Shown here piece after piece: positions 10,828 to 18,939 of a stretch of 20,803 nucleotides of DNA (position 1 is its first letter; each line of letters starts with the position of its first letter). Position numbers and translations under genes: made by a program. Origin of the DNA: a virus. The DNA lies in the IMG/VR virus record IMGVR_UViG_3300045412_000405, positions 1-20,803 of that record; one strand, given 5' to 3'. A model generated the notes under the pieces. The model searched no databases and had not been told where the DNA came from. It saw only the letters and a list, made by a program, of their open reading frames with translations.

Positions 10828-11099
10828 AACTTTAATATTAGGTCGGTTATTTTTCCATCCCCTTGCGGTTCTATTCCGACTATTTTATAGAGAATTGTTG
10901 CAATCGTAATTGTGTCGCCGTGGCGTAGCCCAGTAAAGTCAGAGGTTTTTCCTGTAAACGTAATATTCCTGCCCTCGGCACCCATCTCCATAGCTAGGAA
11001 CTCTTGGTCAAAAATTCCGTTGATTTTGACTTCGCTGGCTAGAGTTGCCTCTACAGCGAAATCAGAAAGCCGAAAAAACACGTCTAAATTTTCGTCCAT
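10824..11099 (-). CDS. FII-like head-tail joining protein (small beta-barrel)
   Basis: A 91-residue protein from the ATG at 11099. A TTG at 11105 could add two residues and overlap the previous stop. The sequence is nearly all beta: FFRLSDFAVEATLASEVKIN, then GIFDQEFLAMEMG, ITFTGKTSDFTGLRHGDTI and a final LYKIVGIEPQGDGKITDLIL. This is the lambda FII/Gifsy-2 family pattern, in which a barrel protein sits at the head vertex and receives the tail. Its place between the capsid group and the tail terminator agrees. The stop overlaps the terminator's start by four bases. Confidence 0.78.
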   Translation of the reverse strand: MDENLDVFFRLSDFAVEATLASEVKINGIFDQEFLAMEMGAEGRNITFTGKTSDFTGLRHGDTITIATILYKIVGIEPQGDGKITDLILKL

Positions 11100-11101
11100 T
11101 T

Positions 11102-11467
11102 TCAATTGAACAGCGCGGTTATTTTATCTTTAAAGGCAGTAATTTGGTCAGGACTAATCGCCTGAATCATATTGATAGCGGTCTGGACTTGCAGTAAAGC
11201 TGATTCAGCAGCATTTTCGGCACTGCCTAACTCTTTAAGCTGAATTTCTAGAGTTAGTTTTTGCTCCCGTAGGGCTTCTATTTGGGTGTTTAATCTTTTA
11301 ATGTTTTCGTTAATTTCAGGCAACTTTTCGCCTTCGTCTTCAGAGTTTTCTAGCTTGAGAGCTTTACCGTGGTATTCCGCTGTACTGGAATCTAACTCAA
11401 TAATAGAGCCTGGCTCATAGATTTTGCCTAGGTGACTGATCGTTGTAAGAACAATGTATTTTTTCAT
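11102..11467 (-). CDS. Post-capsid coiled-coil protein, paralogous to the SAP-domain protein
   Basis: A 121-residue protein. Residues 1-45 form a small beta domain (KYIVLTTISHLGKIYEPGSI) of a kind often found just after capsid genes. Residues 50-120 are helical and heptad-like and close with QAISPDQITAFKDKITALFN. Residues about 63-120 are almost the same as residues 29-86 of the protein encoded on the other side of the capsid gene (see the 181-bp repeats). The stop leaves two bases before the next ATG, or overlaps a TTG. The start overlaps the stop of the 54-residue gene in ATGA fashion. It could be a head completion or decoration factor; no function can be read from sequence alone. Confidence 0.65.
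   Translation of the reverse strand: MKKYIVLTTISHLGKIYEPGSIIELDSSTAEYHGKALKLENSEDEGEKLPEINENIKRLNTQIEALREQKLTLEIQLKELGSAENAAESALLQVQTAINMIQAISPDQITAFKDKITALFN
11105..11285 (-). repeat. 181-bp direct repeat, copy A (downstream of capsid gene)
   Basis: This segment aligns without gaps to 13949-14129. I count 19 differences by eye, about 90% identity. Both copies are in the same orientation and encode the same protein segment (LREQKL, GSAENAAESAL, QAISPDQI). Together they flank the capsid gene at a spacing of about 2.8 kb. Confidence 0.9.
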
Positions 11468-11630: not shown

Positions 11631-13400
11631 TTAGGTAGTAGTCATGTCGGTAATAGCGGCAAAACTTTGGGGATAGCGCACAGCGATGTCTATTGTCTGC
11701 ATTGCGCGAATGGTCACATTACCAGCGGCATACCCTGCCCCGTAGGGGTTCGCCAAGATTTCTAGCACGCCCCACTCACCAATAATTAAATCACTCCACG
11801 TCCCAAGAATTAAAGCACTGAGGTTAGTCCCAGAACCTTTAGTTAGGTTAGAAGGTACTTGATTAGTAGAGAGAAACGGATAACCACAAAGGCTAGTCCC
11901 TGGGTCTGCTAGGATAAAGTTCCCCTCTATCCCCGAGGATTGCTTAGGAGTCGTCATGAGCTTGGCTTCAACCGCAGGATTAGCCATAAAGCGCATGGCT
12001 GTAGTATCGGCATTATCTATTGCAATTTCTCTTTTTAAATTAACGATGCTTTGCCACGTAGGTACACCGCCATTAGTACCGAGAGCTACTGAGCCAATAC
12101 CCGAAGTATTCAAAATCCCCCTTGGTTGGTTATCAACTGCTGTACCAGCAATAGCAGCTGAATCGATACCAATCGCCATAATTCGAGCGAAATCATTTCT
12201 GATAAATTGCTCAATATCGATTGAGGGCTGTAGTAACATCAAGCGGCTAAATTCGGATAAAACGCCCACCGTTTTTGGTTTTAAGGTAACGTGGGTAAAC
12301 GTTGCCTCACTTTGAGTAATTGCCTCGCCTTCATCTACCCAGTACACGGTTGTGGAGGTGGCTTGCTTAGGGATGGCTACAGGACCTTGAAGTCCAGTAA
12401 GCATCATTGCCCCTGCCTGAATTACCATAGCTTTGTTCCTTAAAAGCTCGATAAAGTTTTGGGCGAGTAAATCCGTTTGAACTAAATTACCTCCAGTTTC
12501 TGGCGCCCCTACTGCGTAGGGAGCGCGGTACTTTAAATCACGCGTGGGGACGTAAAAGCCCTTGGGTTCTCTGTTAGCACGTTGGGCGATCTCCTGACTG
12601 CATTCTCTCTCAAATCCTGCTTTAGACCAGTCGTTATTAATGGCCGCATTAATCGCCCGAACAATACTGTAGGTTTTTTCCTCCTTAGCAGATAGGCCTA
12701 GGGGGTCAACGCCTTGCGCTACAGGGGTTTGGGCGTTGCTGAGACGGTCAAGGATAATGGATCTTACCTCTTCTATCGATTTACCCCCTTCTATCAAGGG
12801 TTCAATTAAATCCTTAAATCCGTGGCGAGTACACGCATTTGTAATCGCCTGTACCCTTTCCCGTTCTTGACGTATAATGTCGCTTTTGTCTAGCGTTGTT
12901 TCCATATAAATTCCTTTAAAGTTCCTATGTTCCATATTAGCAAGAAAAACGCGATTGATCCCCACAGTAGGATCAGCAGGTACTGCTACTAAGGAAATTT
13001 CGTAAGGAGTCCACCGAGTTACGGTATAGCTGCCTCTCTCTGGGACTCCATCTCGTACAGTTTCTACCGAGTACCCCAAGGAGACGTTTGAGATAATCCC
13101 GTCCTCAACTTCGGCTCTGACGGCTTGGGCTTGCTCAGATTTAGACCACCGTACTTCACAATATCCTTTTCCCCGTTCTATCCAAACCTTTTCGACTTTA
13201 CCTAACACCTTGTCCCAGTTGTGATTCCAGAGCAAAGGCGCGTTTTGGCACCGCTCTAAATTAACTGCCTCGGGGCTGTGAGAAAGAATTTCGTTACCAA
13301 TCCCCCGGTTAACGGGGGTTTCTGAGGAGAAAGAAAAAGTCAGACGATCCGAGTCGGTTTGTGGAGTAATTTTTTGATAGCGGGTAAAATAATTTTCCAT
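11631..13400 (-). CDS. Fused prohead protease (S78) and HK97-fold major capsid protein
   Basis: A 589-residue protein with two parts. Residues about 20-150 are a caudovirus prohead protease of the S78 type: LLWNHNWDKVLGKV carries the probable catalytic His60, ISNVSLGYSV the probable Ser107, and YEISLVAVPADPTVGI the closing strand. Residues from about 166 on are an HK97-fold capsid protein: a charged helical start (RQERERVQAITNACTRHGF, delta-domain-like), then DLKYRAPYAVGAPETGGNLV, FSRLMLLQPSIDIEQFI and the C-terminal QTIDIAVRYPQSFAAI. The protease would cut the scaffold/delta domain during maturation, and the capsid part forms the shell. The ATG at 13400 has no visible Shine-Dalgarno, while an in-frame ATG at 12905 has a good one. 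I see no frameshift or stop between the domains. Confidence 0.9.
   Translation of the reverse strand: MENYFTRYQKITPQTDSDRLTFSFSSETPVNRGIGNEILSHSPEAVNLERCQNAPLLWNHNWDKVLGKVEKVWIERGKGYCEVRWSKSEQAQAVRAEVEDGIISNVSLGYSVETVRDGVPERGSYTVTRWTPYEISLVAVPADPTVGINRVFLANMEHRNFKGIYMETTLDKSDIIRQERERVQAITNACTRHGFKDLIEPLIEGGKSIEEVRSIILDRLSNAQTPVAQGVDPLGLSAKEEKTYSIVRAINAAINNDWSKAGFERECSQEIAQRANREPKGFYVPTRDLKYRAPYAVGAPETGGNLVQTDLLAQNFIELLRNKAMVIQAGAMMLTGLQGPVAIPKQATSTTVYWVDEGEAITQSEATFTHVTLKPKTVGVLSEFSRLMLLQPSIDIEQFIRNDFARIMAIGIDSAAIAGTAVDNQPRGILNTSGIGSVALGTNGGVPTWQSIVNLKREIAIDNADTTAMRFMANPAVEAKLMTTPKQSSGIEGNFILADPGTSLCGYPFLSTNQVPSNLTKGSGTNLSALILGTWSDLIIGEWGVLEILANPYGAGYAAGNVTIRAMQTIDIAVRYPQSFAAITDMTTT
12903..12917 (-). 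promoter_or_regulatory. Internal ribosome-binding site and ATG at the protease-capsid junction
   Basis: AAAGGA (12917-12912) is followed after six bases by an in-frame ATG (12905-12903), codon 166 of the fusion. This is exactly where protease sequence gives way to the helical capsid N-terminus (METTLDKSD). Starting here would give a separate 424-residue capsid protein. The upstream start at 13400 has no comparable site. Confidence 0.6.
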
Positions 13401-13450
13401 AGATAAAAAAATAAGATTGAGATACTTCTATCTTAATCCTATTTTTAATA

Positions 13451-13618: not shown

Positions 13619-14206
13619 CTATTTACTAACGGTTGAGATTACTACGTCAGCTTGTAGAAGCCCCCAGTCAACAAGACGGGTTATAAGCTCGGCTTTTGTG
13701 CCATTACTGTCAAGTTTACGCTCTTGGCACAGCTTCTGCAGTTTGGCTACGCTTAGGCGTTTAATCCACGCAGGATGTCCGTTAGTGGTGGTTTTGGTGT
13801 ACTCCTCTTTCAGTAGGTCAGCAATGGTGGGGCTGTCATCCTCTACCATATTTTCTAGGGTTGGTTCAAGAATTATGGTATTTTCTTTAAGGGTGGGGTT
13901 CTCAGGTTCAGGATCAGGGGTGACAGGGGGGAGGATTGGTAATTTGGTATTGAACAGCGCGGTTATTGCATCTTTAAAGGTGGCAATCTGGTCAGGACTA
14001 ATCGCCTGAATCATACTGATAGCGGTTTGGACTTGAACTAGGGCAGATTCAGCAGCATTTTCGGCACTGCCTAACTCTTGAAGATGGGTTTCTAGAGCTA
14101 ATTTTTGCTCCCGTAGGGCTTCTATTTGGCGGCTTAAATCTTCAATAGTTGCGTTGATTTCGGAAACTTTCGTGTTGAGTTGGTTGATTTTATTTTGGAA
14201 AAGCAT
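13619..14206 (-). CDS. Coiled-coil plus SAP-domain protein in the scaffold position
   Basis: A 195-residue protein. Residues 1-65 are helical and heptad-like, residues about 67-86 repeat the QAISPDQI segment, and 88-140 is a Pro/Glu-rich linker (LPPVTPDPEPENP). Residues 151-184 are a SAP domain (LSVAKLQKLCQERKLDSNGT, then KAELITRLVDWGLL), a helix-turn-helix module that usually binds DNA or helps chromatin attachment. The gene stands just before the protease-capsid gene, where scaffold genes normally lie. The coiled coil would suit a scaffold, and the SAP domain is an odd addition that might contact DNA or the portal. AGAGG nine bases before the ATG is a good ribosome site. SAP call confident; role inferred. 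Confidence 0.72.
   Translation of the reverse strand: MLFQNKINQLNTKVSEINATIEDLSRQIEALREQKLALETHLQELGSAENAAESALVQVQTAISMIQAISPDQIATFKDAITALFNTKLPILPPVTPDPEPENPTLKENTIILEPTLENMVEDDSPTIADLLKEEYTKTTTNGHPAWIKRLSVAKLQKLCQERKLDSNGTKAELITRLVDWGLLQADVVISTVSK
13949..14129 (-). repeat. 181-bp direct repeat, copy B (upstream of capsid gene)
   Basis: The partner of 11105-11285, in the same orientation, gap-free and about 90% identical by eye count. It lies inside the SAP-domain gene and encodes its coiled-coil and QAISPDQI region. Confidence 0.9.
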
Positions 14207-14920: not shown

Positions 14921-16246
14921 TTATTTAGGCGGCTTCTGCCCTCTAGCGGCTAAAATGCCAATTACAAGCTCTAGGTGTTCCCTGTCTACTCTTTTTAACT
15001 CATTAAAATCTTTAAAGCTCGCTAAACTTTGTACTCCCATAGAAGTCACTTCAGTGCTAAAAAGTCTTGCCCCATCGCCGTCTAAAAATACCTCTTTAAT
15101 GCTGCCATCGTTGTAGTATTGACTTAATTTTGTCCCATACACTTTACCTACGTAGGCATTCGTAAATTTGTCTCGGTAGGCTAACTCATCATCATCATAG
15201 CCGTTGTTATTGGTTATTACACTTAATTTTTCGGGCATTATTTCAGTCGGGAAAGTTATCGGTGTGTTAAATCTAGAATTTCTCCAATCAGACGCTGCTT
15301 TTAAAGTCGCCTCATCGTCAAATTCAAGATGATGGGCAACTTCGTGAAAGATTGCTCCTCGTTCATCAGCTTTTTGTAAAGCAATTAAATTGTTTTTACT
15401 GTCGGCATGAGGTCTTTTCTCTTGAAACTCTACAGTTTCTAAAGTGGCTATCTCACCCGTCAACGCATAAATATCATTCAAATGTCCCCGAACGGTCTTA
15501 ACGTCAGATTCGTCAGGGGAAAATGGGTCATCTTTTTTACTATCTACAATTCTAATCTTATTAACTAATTCCTCTGGGGTTTCGCTTGAGCGGCTCGCTA
15601 CCCGCGCTTTTAATTCCTTCAAAACATTTTCATAGGCAACCTCGTCAAGGTAGTTGCTGCGCCGTTGTTGAGCATTCCATAATCTATCATTAAGCTCTAG
15701 CCTATCAAAATCCACGTCAAACTCAAAAGCAGCTTTTTTCTTCTTGCCTTTTTTCTTATCGTACTCAGCTAGAGCCTCTTTTGCTGCCTCTTCTTCAGCA
15801 ATAACCTCCGCAAGGAGAGCTTCCCGCGCCTTCTCGTCTTTAGGAACGGCTTTATCAAGTATTTCTTTCCCAAGGGCTAATACTTGTCTAAAATCTGCTC
15901 GGTCTATACCAGCGTAGCCTGTAGTGGTAGAAGTAAGTTCAGGTTCAGGGATAGGCTTCTTATTGCTGATTTTTTTCTTAAGGGTTTCCTTGGTTTTCTT
16001 TGCCGTAGCGTCTAAAGTCTTTCTGCAGGTTTTAGTAGCAGCAATACAGGCGTTACCGCAACTAATCCCTTTTTTGCAGTTCTTCGCTTTTTGAGTCCTA
16101 AAAAATTCAGGTACTAAAGTAAACCCTCTATCTAAAGCCGCTGTTTTATTTTCTTCGGAAACATACTGTAAATTACCCGTAAAACTAGCATATTTAAGTT
16201 CGTCCAACACGCGGGCTTTTTCTTGAGGAGTCAATATCTCTAACAT
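14921..16246 (-). CDS. Cys-module and HEXXH metallopeptidase-like minor head protein
   Basis: A 441-residue protein. I take the ATG at 16246, with GGAGG seven bases upstream and a TGATG junction with the portal stop. A GTG one codon earlier is possible. Residues 57-74 hold a cysteine motif C-x5-C-x3-C-x6-C (NCKKGISCGNACIA core). A Lys/Glu-rich helical region follows (about 75-225). The C-terminal part has IFHEVAHHLEF with a zinc-type HEVAH at 301-305. TEVTSMG near 398-404 places Glu399 as a plausible third ligand, a layout seen in phage and toxin-associated metallopeptidases. It may process a head protein, or be carried in the particle and act in the host. It shares its Cys module with the portal. 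Metallopeptidase call is good; substrate unknown. Confidence 0.72.
   Translation of the reverse strand: MLEILTPQEKARVLDELKYASFTGNLQYVSEENKTAALDRGFTLVPEFFRTQKAKNCKKGISCGNACIAATKTCRKTLDATAKKTKETLKKKISNKKPIPEPELTSTTTGYAGIDRADFRQVLALGKEILDKAVPKDEKAREALLAEVIAEEEAAKEALAEYDKKKGKKKKAAFEFDVDFDRLELNDRLWNAQQRRSNYLDEVAYENVLKELKARVASRSSETPEELVNKIRIVDSKKDDPFSPDESDVKTVRGHLNDIYALTGEIATLETVEFQEKRPHADSKNNLIALQKADERGAIFHEVAHHLEFDDEATLKAASDWRNSRFNTPITFPTEIMPEKLSVITNNNGYDDDELAYRDKFTNAYVGKVYGTKLSQYYNDGSIKEVFLDGDGARLFSTEVTSMGVQSLASFKDFNELKRVDREHLELVIGILAARGQKPPK
16041..16078 (-). repeat. Cys-module DNA repeat, copy in the metallopeptidase gene
   Basis: A 38-base segment that matches 17369-17406 at 36 positions and encodes the CKKGISCGNACIA core. 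The surrounding DNA is not similar to this degree, so conservation or recent transfer is focused on the module. Confidence 0.85.
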
Positions 16247-18939
16247 CACTTAACCTCCATAATTACTAATTTTTTAATTTCTTCAAAAATCTCATCTTCA
16301 ACTTTTTTAGCTGATTCCCCCTTAAGTATTCTATCTGCCCCATCGTTTAAGGTTTTTGAGATTGGTCCCGATAGGTTTTTGAGTTGATCAAAAATCTGTA
16401 AGGTTGTCGCGGCTTCCTTAGAAATTTCTTTGCTTGCTGTTTGGTTGATTAAATTTCCTGCCTTCTGTAGCTCAGTCGCGGCTTTCGACTTTGCTACTAC
16501 CCCAAACAACCGTTTTTCCCGTGCCAATCTTTTTTTGACTTGGGCTTGCAAGTGTGATTTTTCAATAGCTGTAGAGCCAACTATCTCATAATTACCAAAT
16601 AAATCGGTTTCAAAAGAGATAGACTCTTCTGAAGATTTTACAGTATCTGCAAGCTCTTTCAGGAAAATATCAGAGACGTTCCTACGTTTACCCTCTTTTT
16701 CTGCCAGTTCCCACAACGCTTTTTGTTTAGGGCTATCTAAACCAGAGCCTCCAATAATTGCCCCTTGATTTAAGCTGATTTCGCCGTCAATAACCCGCCT
16801 AAATAGACTGGCTTCTAGTTGGGCTAACCTTATCCCGTCCTCCGCTACAGCTTCACGCATAGGAATGCCTTTTTTATTCAAATCTTCTCGGGTTAACCCA
16901 GTATCCTTAAAAAACTTAGCCGCGTCTAAAGCGGTACCTCGCCCCTCGGCAATATTGGTTATAGCCCCGACCGCTCGGGCTTCTTTGTCTGAGGCAACAT
17001 CCAAGTAGCGTACAGCTACCTTTTCCGCCCCGAGTTTTTTAGCTAAATCTAACCTGTTATGCCCGTTGACTACGTAGGTTTTGCCGTCCGCTGGATCTTG
17101 CCACACCTGCAAGATACCCGCTAGGTTGGGATCGTATTTTCTGACACCTGCTAAACTACCCACCGAGCCAGTAGCGGTCTGTTCTCCGATAATTTTATAT
17201 TGAAATCGTTTGGGATCTACTAAAATTTCTGCAGGATCGATTTCTGTTATAGTGCCAGCTTTTTTAGTCGATTTGTAAACTAGAGGTTTTTTAGCGAGCT
17301 TTTTAACTAATTTCTTTTTATTTTCTTTTTGTTCAGGGGGTAATGACTGCTTGCAAACCCTATCCTTAGCAATACAGGCATTTCCGCAACTAATCCCTTT
17401 TTTGCACTGTTTAGCCCTAATTGCCCGTTTGTAAGAGCGGAGAGGGGTTAATCCTTCGGCGATGGGTGCCGATTCCTCCCCTTCGGCTGGCTGCTCCTCT
17501 TCTCCCCCTGCGGCGATGGTCGTATCAAATCCGAGTTCTAAGGTTTCGGCTAAATCTAATTCCCTGCGGCGCTCTTTAAGAATATCCTCTAAATCGCCCC
17601 CAGTTTGGGCGATTACCTGCGTGATAGAGGTAAATCCTGCTTTTATGGCCTCCTTGTGCGCAGCTACCTCATTTTGCGGGTCGACCCACTGCCACCCCCT
17701 CGCCGTAAACTTTTCTCTGTGGTAGTGGGCAGGGTTCAAGTCATAATTTTTTAGGGCAAGCCGCCCCGACAAAACGGCGGTCTGCAACCAGATTTTATAA
17801 ATCCTTTTGTGCAGGTTTTTGATTAGCCAATCCTGCAAAATTCTATAGTTATCGCGCTCCTCAATTAAACTTGTCCGGGCTGAAGAATACGAAGTATTCG
17901 AGTAGTCGCGGCTTAAACTTTCGTAAGAAAGCCCGAGACTTGCCGCAACACCGCGCAGCATCATTCTTACAAACGGGTCAAAACCCTGATTAGGTCTGGT
18001 CGGGGCAAATCCCGAAAAAGTCTCCCCTGGGGCTAAAATTTCTATAGCCCCAGGTTCCAAATTGTACAATCGATTGCCCGCTTCAACCCCTTGGGATAAA
18101 GTATCGCCATCCGAAGTTTGGATAAATCCCATTACGGCTGCTTGCGCTCGGGCGGCAATTAGTTCGGCTTCTTCGTAGCCCCCCATATTTCGCATTCGCA
18201 TCAAAGCGGCGTGAAACCACGGAATCCCTCGGGTTTGCCCTGGGCGATCGCACAAAAACAAGTGCAAAATCTCCTCAGCAGGGATTCGGAGCAATCGACT
18301 ATCGGCGTAGCTTTGACTAAATTGGTAATCCCCTGGATGATACGGGTAAAGCCAATAGGCAAGCGGTCTTTGCCAATCATCTACCTCTACCCCCATCCTG
18401 ATTTTCCCTACCGTTCCCTGCCCGACTGAGTAATCGTCACAAAGTTGGTCGGCTTCAATTATTTCTAGAGCCAGAGGCACTGGGCTACCCCAAAAAGACT
18501 TTTTTACAATCCTGATTAAAACTTCTCCCGATTCTACTAGGGAGCGCATTACTAATCTCTCAATATCACTAAAGCACAACCGACCTGCGGTGTGGCAATA
18601 ATAAGCGTCGTTCCACTCCAGCCAAGCCTCTTCAATTAATTCGTTAATACGGTCATCATAGGCTTGGCCACGTTGTTTTCTTACTTGAGACTGGAGTTTA
18701 ATCCCCTGCCCAACTACGTTGTTGACAATGGTGCGCACCGCTCCTTTAGCGTAATCGTTGTTGCGGCAAAGGTCGCGGCTTCGATTTCTTAAGGGGCGCA
18801 GGGCGGTTAGAATTTCGGAATCGGCAGAGGCACCAGAAACCAGCCAATCAGAATTAAGCCGATTAAATACTGCCCCTTGATAAGCTCGGGTTTTAGGTTT
18901 TTCTTTTCTTCCTCCTCTTAACCAATCCCACAAACTCAT
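16246..18939 (-). CDS. Lambda-type portal protein fused to Cys module and ParB-like domain
   Basis: An 897-residue protein. Residues 1-465 are a lambda gpB-type portal (RNRSRDLCRNNDYAKGAVRT, VESGEVLIRI, AEEILHLFLCDRPGQTRGIP, SYSSARTSLIEER), the dodecameric ring through which DNA enters and leaves the head. After a Glu/Ala-rich linker comes the motif C512-x5-C518-x3-C522-x6-C529, then a Lys-rich stretch. Residues about 565-690 are a ParB/sulfiredoxin-like domain (IDPAEILVDPKRFQYK, then TYVVNGHNRLDLAKKLGAEK, with NGHNR at 625-629). A helical 200-residue tail ends the protein. Normal portals of this family are about 500-550 residues, so roughly 350 are extra. The ParB-like part may be a nuclease or nucleotide-using enzyme carried with the portal. 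Reading frame is continuous across the join. Confidence 0.9.
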   Translation of the reverse strand: MSLWDWLRGGRKEKPKTRAYQGAVFNRLNSDWLVSGASADSEILTALRPLRNRSRDLCRNNDYAKGAVRTIVNNVVGQGIKLQSQVRKQRGQAYDDRINELIEEAWLEWNDAYYCHTAGRLCFSDIERLVMRSLVESGEVLIRIVKKSFWGSPVPLALEIIEADQLCDDYSVGQGTVGKIRMGVEVDDWQRPLAYWLYPYHPGDYQFSQSYADSRLLRIPAEEILHLFLCDRPGQTRGIPWFHAALMRMRNMGGYEEAELIAARAQAAVMGFIQTSDGDTLSQGVEAGNRLYNLEPGAIEILAPGETFSGFAPTRPNQGFDPFVRMMLRGVAASLGLSYESLSRDYSNTSYSSARTSLIEERDNYRILQDWLIKNLHKRIYKIWLQTAVLSGRLALKNYDLNPAHYHREKFTARGWQWVDPQNEVAAHKEAIKAGFTSITQVIAQTGGDLEDILKERRRELDLAETLELGFDTTIAAGGEEEQPAEGEESAPIAEGLTPLRSYKRAIRAKQCKKGISCGNACIAKDRVCKQSLPPEQKENKKKLVKKLAKKPLVYKSTKKAGTITEIDPAEILVDPKRFQYKIIGEQTATGSVGSLAGVRKYDPNLAGILQVWQDPADGKTYVVNGHNRLDLAKKLGAEKVAVRYLDVASDKEARAVGAITNIAEGRGTALDAAKFFKDTGLTREDLNKKGIPMREAVAEDGIRLAQLEASLFRRVIDGEISLNQGAIIGGSGLDSPKQKALWELAEKEGKRRNVSDIFLKELADTVKSSEESISFETDLFGNYEIVGSTAIEKSHLQAQVKKRLAREKRLFGVVAKSKAATELQKAGNLINQTASKEISKEAATTLQIFDQLKNLSGPISKTLNDGADRILKGESAKKVEDEIFEEIKKLVIMEVK
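17369..17406 (-). repeat. Cys-module DNA repeat, copy in the portal gene
   Basis: The partner of 16041-16078, with two mismatches in 38 bases, coding for C512 to C522 of the portal fusion. Confidence 0.85.
18244..18251. other. Single HIP1-type palindrome GCGATCGC
   Basis: GCGATCGC is very frequent in many cyanobacterial chromosomes. I found only this copy, inside the portal gene. One copy in 20.8 kb is weak evidence for a cyanobacterial host and would equally fit a phage with little HIP1 enrichment. Confidence 0.5.

Follow-up and report, generated by a model that had tools for sequence, protein, structure and literature searches.

Results

A protease and a capsid protein share one reading frame

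The DNA analysed here, referred to as the window, is the whole stretch of positions 1 to 20,803 of the 20.8-kb IMG/VR virus record IMGVR_UViG_3300045412_000405. Its minus strand carries a head module of terminase, portal, protease-capsid fusion, connector and tail genes. The fusion gene has the following layout:

11631..13400, minus strand: fused ORF (589 aa, 64.5 kDa) of prohead protease, linker, delta (scaffold-like) region and HK97-type capsid protein
12954..13352, minus strand: predicted protease domain, Peptidase_S78 (aa 17-149), folded in the AlphaFold2 model
12888..12953, minus strand: disordered linker (aa 150-171, pLDDT < 50 in the AlphaFold2 model)
12495..12905, minus strand: delta (scaffold-like) region (aa 166-302), mostly helical in the AlphaFold2 model
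11634..12494, minus strand: mature capsid protein (aa 303-589, 30.4 kDa), by homology to PDB 8gta

A preliminary description of this DNA had held that the protease and the capsid protein lie in one frame, and this is the case: the ORF at 13400..11631 on the minus strand is a single frame throughout, with matches to both Peptidase_S78 (PF04586; aa 48-149, 35.9 bits against a Pfam cut-off of 21) and Phage_capsid (PF05065; aa 303-584, 134.8 against 24.2 bits). The HK97-type capsid profile TIGR01554 was also passed (121 against 27.5 bits), while the score for the stricter NCBIfam S78 profile, TIGR01543, was 39.4 bits, below its cut-off of 59. The PHROG 617 major head protein profile covers aa 13-586 with an E value of 1.9e-135; PHROGs have no curated cut-off, and membership in PHROG 617 means here a full-length profile match. 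Within the predicted S78 protease, H60 and S107 are invariant across alignments of 16 and 30 sequences. In the AlphaFold2 model (mean pLDDT 75.7), helices begin after the linker at aa 172 and are followed by a second disordered stretch, 289-314, and then by the HK97 fold.

The best match among solved structures is the capsid protein of Dinoroseobacter phage vB_DshS-R4C (PDB 8gta), which belongs to the same family as the window protein (profile E 2e-87) and forms a T=7 shell of 415 capsid proteins (PMC10276861). Only the mature R4C capsid has been solved; within its 629-aa ORF the solved chain begins at residue 362, equivalent to aa 303 of the window protein. By homology to R4C, the delta region at aa 166-302 is expected to be removed on maturation.

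Two further features of the module were observed. A 220-bp direct repeat (11098-11317 and 13942-14161, 85% identical) forms the coiled-coil part of two ORFs that lie close to the capsid gene on either side, a 121-aa ORF downstream and a SAP-domain ORF upstream. Additionally, in the portal protein (16246-18939, minus strand, 897 aa) the lambda-type portal domain (aa 26-369) is followed by a long C-terminal extension; this extension includes a stretch that by eye resembles a ParB/Srx-like nuclease, with no strong family match.

A candidate internal start in the linker

The linker contains the elements of a possible second translation start, from which a shorter product would be made:

12912..12917, minus strand: AAAGGA, Shine-Dalgarno (SD)-like site of the candidate internal start, identical in sequence in the nearest relative, L002
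12903..12905, minus strand: internal ATG, codon 166, in the disordered linker; proposed start of a free delta-capsid protein
12933..12935, minus strand: a further linker ATG, codon 156, with no SD; also present in relatives L002-L004
11631..12905, minus strand: proposed short product (aa 166-589, 45.7 kDa), predicted from the initiation signals

The coding-strand sequence of the linker is aatATGgaacataggaactttAAAGGAatttatATGgaaaca, where codon 166 (12905) is the second ATG. The arrangement noted at first sight, AAAGGA followed by six bases and an ATG at the protease-capsid junction, was confirmed on the minus strand (ttt AAAGGA atttat ATG gaa aca); from this ATG, the first helix of the delta-like region begins six residues further on. 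The upstream ATG lacks such a site, as had also been proposed: the duplex energy against the 16S anti-SD is +2.7 kcal/mol at 13400 and -5.6 at 12905. Of the window's other gene starts, 17 were scored and 12 of these fall between -3.8 and -11.5; thus the phage does use SDs. Taken alone, however, the site in the window is weak, because 4 of the 23 ATGs of the gene, counted in any frame, reach -5.6 or better. The window by itself cannot decide whether the site is there by chance; its weight comes from position and conservation, and we rejected chance on the family data presented below.

The linker ATG is constant among relatives

Relatives were drawn from viral contigs, genomes and named phages, and 109 fused ORFs were aligned, with the linker bounded by the conserved protease end VPADxTVGxGR and the conserved delta-region motif ERxRV. 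An in-frame linker ATG was present in all 109. Among sequences of <80% identity it was found in 70/70, where the frequency of Met in the rest of these proteins predicts 45.5 (log10 P about -13.8, a rough value because the rows are related by descent); at <60% identity the count was 41/41 (26.4 expected), and at <45% it was 18/18 (11.7 expected). The linkers otherwise differ freely in residues and in length, from 12 to about 90 residues, and the Met is therefore their one constant. The family extends to laboratory coliphages such as HeidiAbel_Bas97 and ECO1230-10.

Two loci were left out of this evidence. L037 (1408-3133) has no linker and encodes its protease and capsid parts in different frames, which may reflect a defective copy, an error of assembly or a natural split. 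L008 (2911-4077) is a protease-free capsid gene whose product belongs to the same family (51% identity over aa 239-589); the gene adjoins an 860-aa primase/ATPase-like ORF and is possibly part of a satellite element. L008 shows only that a free capsid form exists in the wider family.

Linker ATGs carry initiation signals

In the 48 sequences with a single linker ATG, the mean SD energy is -5.14 and 67% reach -5 or better. Other in-frame ATGs (n = 868) give -1.85 and 9% (p 1e-9 against the linker ATGs), and other codons from these linkers (n = 1900) give -1.93 and 12%. In a scan along the sequence, anti-SD complementarity was near zero upstream, peaked in segments whose end lies 0 to 6 bases 5' of the ATG and was gone after it. 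Furthermore, G occupies position -9 at 71% of linker ATGs, and the Met is mostly followed by E, T, S or D. For comparison, most linker sites score better than two known starts, those of lambda Nu3 (-2.7) and HK97 gp5 (-3.7).

Much of this signal could stem from the Glu/Lys/Arg-rich residues that precede the Met. When codons were randomised with the protein kept, strong SDs (-5 or better) fell from the 61% observed to 40%, with a maximum of 51% among 300 sets; the residues thus carry much of the signal and codon choice adds more. The idea that the SD is a mere by-product of acidic residues is accordingly true in part, and it is exceeded by what is observed. RNA structure around the linker ATG is also weak (-7.7 versus -16.0 kcal/mol), mostly through base composition, and we give this little weight as independent evidence.

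The preliminary description had proposed that one frame may yield both a fusion and a free capsid protein, and had named absence of the junction site from relatives with the same fusion as a finding that would speak against it. The comparison supports dual production and shows the site retained, with the ATG in every relative and a correctly spaced SD before most of them. The SD is the less constant element: most relatives have it, but the ATG is kept without one mainly in cyanobacterial members (the three Synechococcus phages S-LBS1, S-CBS1 and S-CBS3, and L013) and in L003 and L004.

The upstream start and its hairpin

Immediately 5' of the fusion gene lie the following features:

13398..13400, minus strand: upstream ATG, start of the fusion, with no SD as judged by anti-SD duplex energy
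13407..13446, minus strand: hairpin with a U-tract directly 5' of the upstream ATG, its shape kept in L002 and L003

The sequence 5' of the upstream ATG at 13400 is ttatttttttatct, and that of the hairpin with its U-tract is UUAUUUUUUUAUCU. L002 has a 10-bp perfect stem in the same place and L003 a stem of different sequence, so the shape of the hairpin persists while its sequence changes. This suggests a terminator-like element or a brake on the start of the fusion. A terminator at this position, or a promoter in the protease region, might mean that free capsid protein comes from a separate transcript and not from a second start on the same mRNA, and the conserved hairpin is in keeping with such an arrangement. 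We nevertheless consider it very improbable: no promoter-like site was found on the coding strand between 13400 and 12905, relatives L005 and L006 have a strong SD before the upstream ATG, and an internal start would still be needed on the separate transcript.

In both the window and its nearest relative, L002, the upstream ATG lacks an SD and the internal site has one. In this respect the original proposal of a rare fusion and an abundant capsid protein fits these two, and is plausible for the window on the strength of its start signals. The family as a whole does not follow this pattern. In 19 annotated phages, upstream and internal starts have equal SD energies on average (-4.95 and -4.99), and we therefore rejected a general rule that the upstream start is the weaker. 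The upstream SDs of L005 (-11.5, against -6.4 at its internal site) and L006 (-10.8) are stronger than the internal ones, and strong upstream SDs also occur in the annotated phages L018 (-12.0) and L028 (-9.3).

Upstream SDs that equal or surpass the internal ones, as in L018, L028 and L005, are what would be seen if the fusion were the main capsid subunit and the product of the internal start had another role, for example as a minority, scaffold-like delta-capsid protein. The upstream starts without an SD in the window and L002 argue against this, as does the resulting load of about 415 proteases per head, since HK97 needs far fewer. We regard such a division of roles as unlikely.

Other protease-capsid fusion families

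Two further families of fusions were sampled: NF045541, represented by Stenotrophomonas S1, Microcystis yong2, Bordetella PBb002, Pseudomonas LPPA33 and 80 contigs, and NF045540, represented by F10 and 80 contigs. The window protein scores 150.5 bits against NF045541, below the cut-off of 525, and matches only the first 284 of its 634 positions. Like the window gene, both families have protease and capsid protein in one ORF and, in the members checked, a linker ATG with an SD; unlike it, these members have another type of capsid domain, and those of NF045540 also a ClpP-like protease. Among representatives of <85% identity, all 27 of NF045541 and all 11 of NF045540 have an ATG in or beside the linker with an SD of -5.4 or better; the linker ATGs of the NF045541 members L274 and L275 have SDs of -7.3 and -7.6. 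The three fusion families are not fully independent, since NF045541 and NF045540 share a capsid type and NF045541 and the window share a protease type.

These data bear on the published reading of such genes. Single-gene protease-scaffold-capsid proteins have been described as one polypeptide in phage MD8 (PMC8508860) and in the related phage Murka (PMC10892653); neither "internal" nor "start codon" occurs in the MD8 text, and our literature search, which found descriptions of such proteins, turned up none that mentions an internal start in their genes. If only the fusion were made, each capsid subunit would bring one protease, which would cut itself off at maturation, and the ATG and SD would be relics of two genes that were once separate, or by-products of an acidic linker. 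The members without an SD and the strong SDs that survive codon randomisation are compatible with this. Against it, the Met has never been lost in 109 sequences even though the linker diverges freely in sequence and length, the spacing of the SD is kept and SDs exceed the codon-randomised controls. Moreover, a linker ATG with an SD is seen in three fusion architectures. A relic should have decayed. In our judgement exclusive production of the fusion is quite improbable.

Discussion

A model with two starts in one frame

We consider it highly probable, from comparison of the genes, that two starts in the same frame give a protease-delta-capsid fusion and a delta-capsid protein, which co-assemble so that the fusion carries in a limited number of proteases before proteolysis. 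Initiation at 13400 would give the 64.5-kDa fusion, and initiation at 12905, directed by AAAGGA, the 45.7-kDa delta-capsid protein. The two would co-assemble through their shared capsid domain, and proteases would thereby enter the procapsid in limited number, as part of the fusion. The protease would then cut off the delta regions as well as itself, and the mature capsid protein left behind would be of ~30 kDa, an end point supported by the start of the solved R4C chain. We infer from the sequences the synthesis of both products, their co-assembly and the ratio between them.

By extension, the protease-capsid fusions of tailed phages, in all three architectures, are probably dual-product genes in which the linker start sets the protease-to-capsid ratio and whose second product has gone unrecorded. 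It would follow that hundreds of "single fusion protein" records each lack a second product, the actual capsid precursor. If true, this would explain how a single protease-capsid gene avoids one protease per capsid subunit, and it would reveal where the capsid precursor really begins in a large set of tailed phages that includes cyanophages, roseophages, Jilinvirus, Hapunavirus, Foxunavirus, R4C and F10-like phages. It would also correct the annotation, as databases may lack the very precursor from which most of the head is built.

Comparison with known systems

NCBIfam already names such proteins fusions, and nested protease/scaffold genes, as in lambda C/Nu3, are classical. R4C has the same protease-linker-delta-capsid layout as the window gene and a linker ATG, at codon 189, preceded by GGAGG (SD -9.5); the words protease and cleavage are absent from the main text of its description (PMC10276861). 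HK97 genes 4 and 5 encode an S78-type protease, a delta-like region and the HK97 capsid fold in the same order, but as two genes with separate starts, whereas the window has one frame with a candidate internal start. In herpesvirus UL26/UL26.5, a protease fusion that is rare shares its frame with a shorter assembly protein that is abundant; the two forms come from separate transcripts, and the short product is a scaffold. Lambda C/Nu3, like the window gene, has an N-terminal protease, an in-frame internal start and a shared stop (annotated in NC_001416), and the window's candidate in-frame start has initiation signals and is conserved in relatives. In lambda a shorter C-terminal product drives assembly, as the proposed short product of the window gene would. 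They differ in what that product is: Nu3 is a separate scaffold, the lambda capsid protein E being encoded by another gene, whereas the short product of the window gene contains the capsid domain and would be the capsid protein itself.
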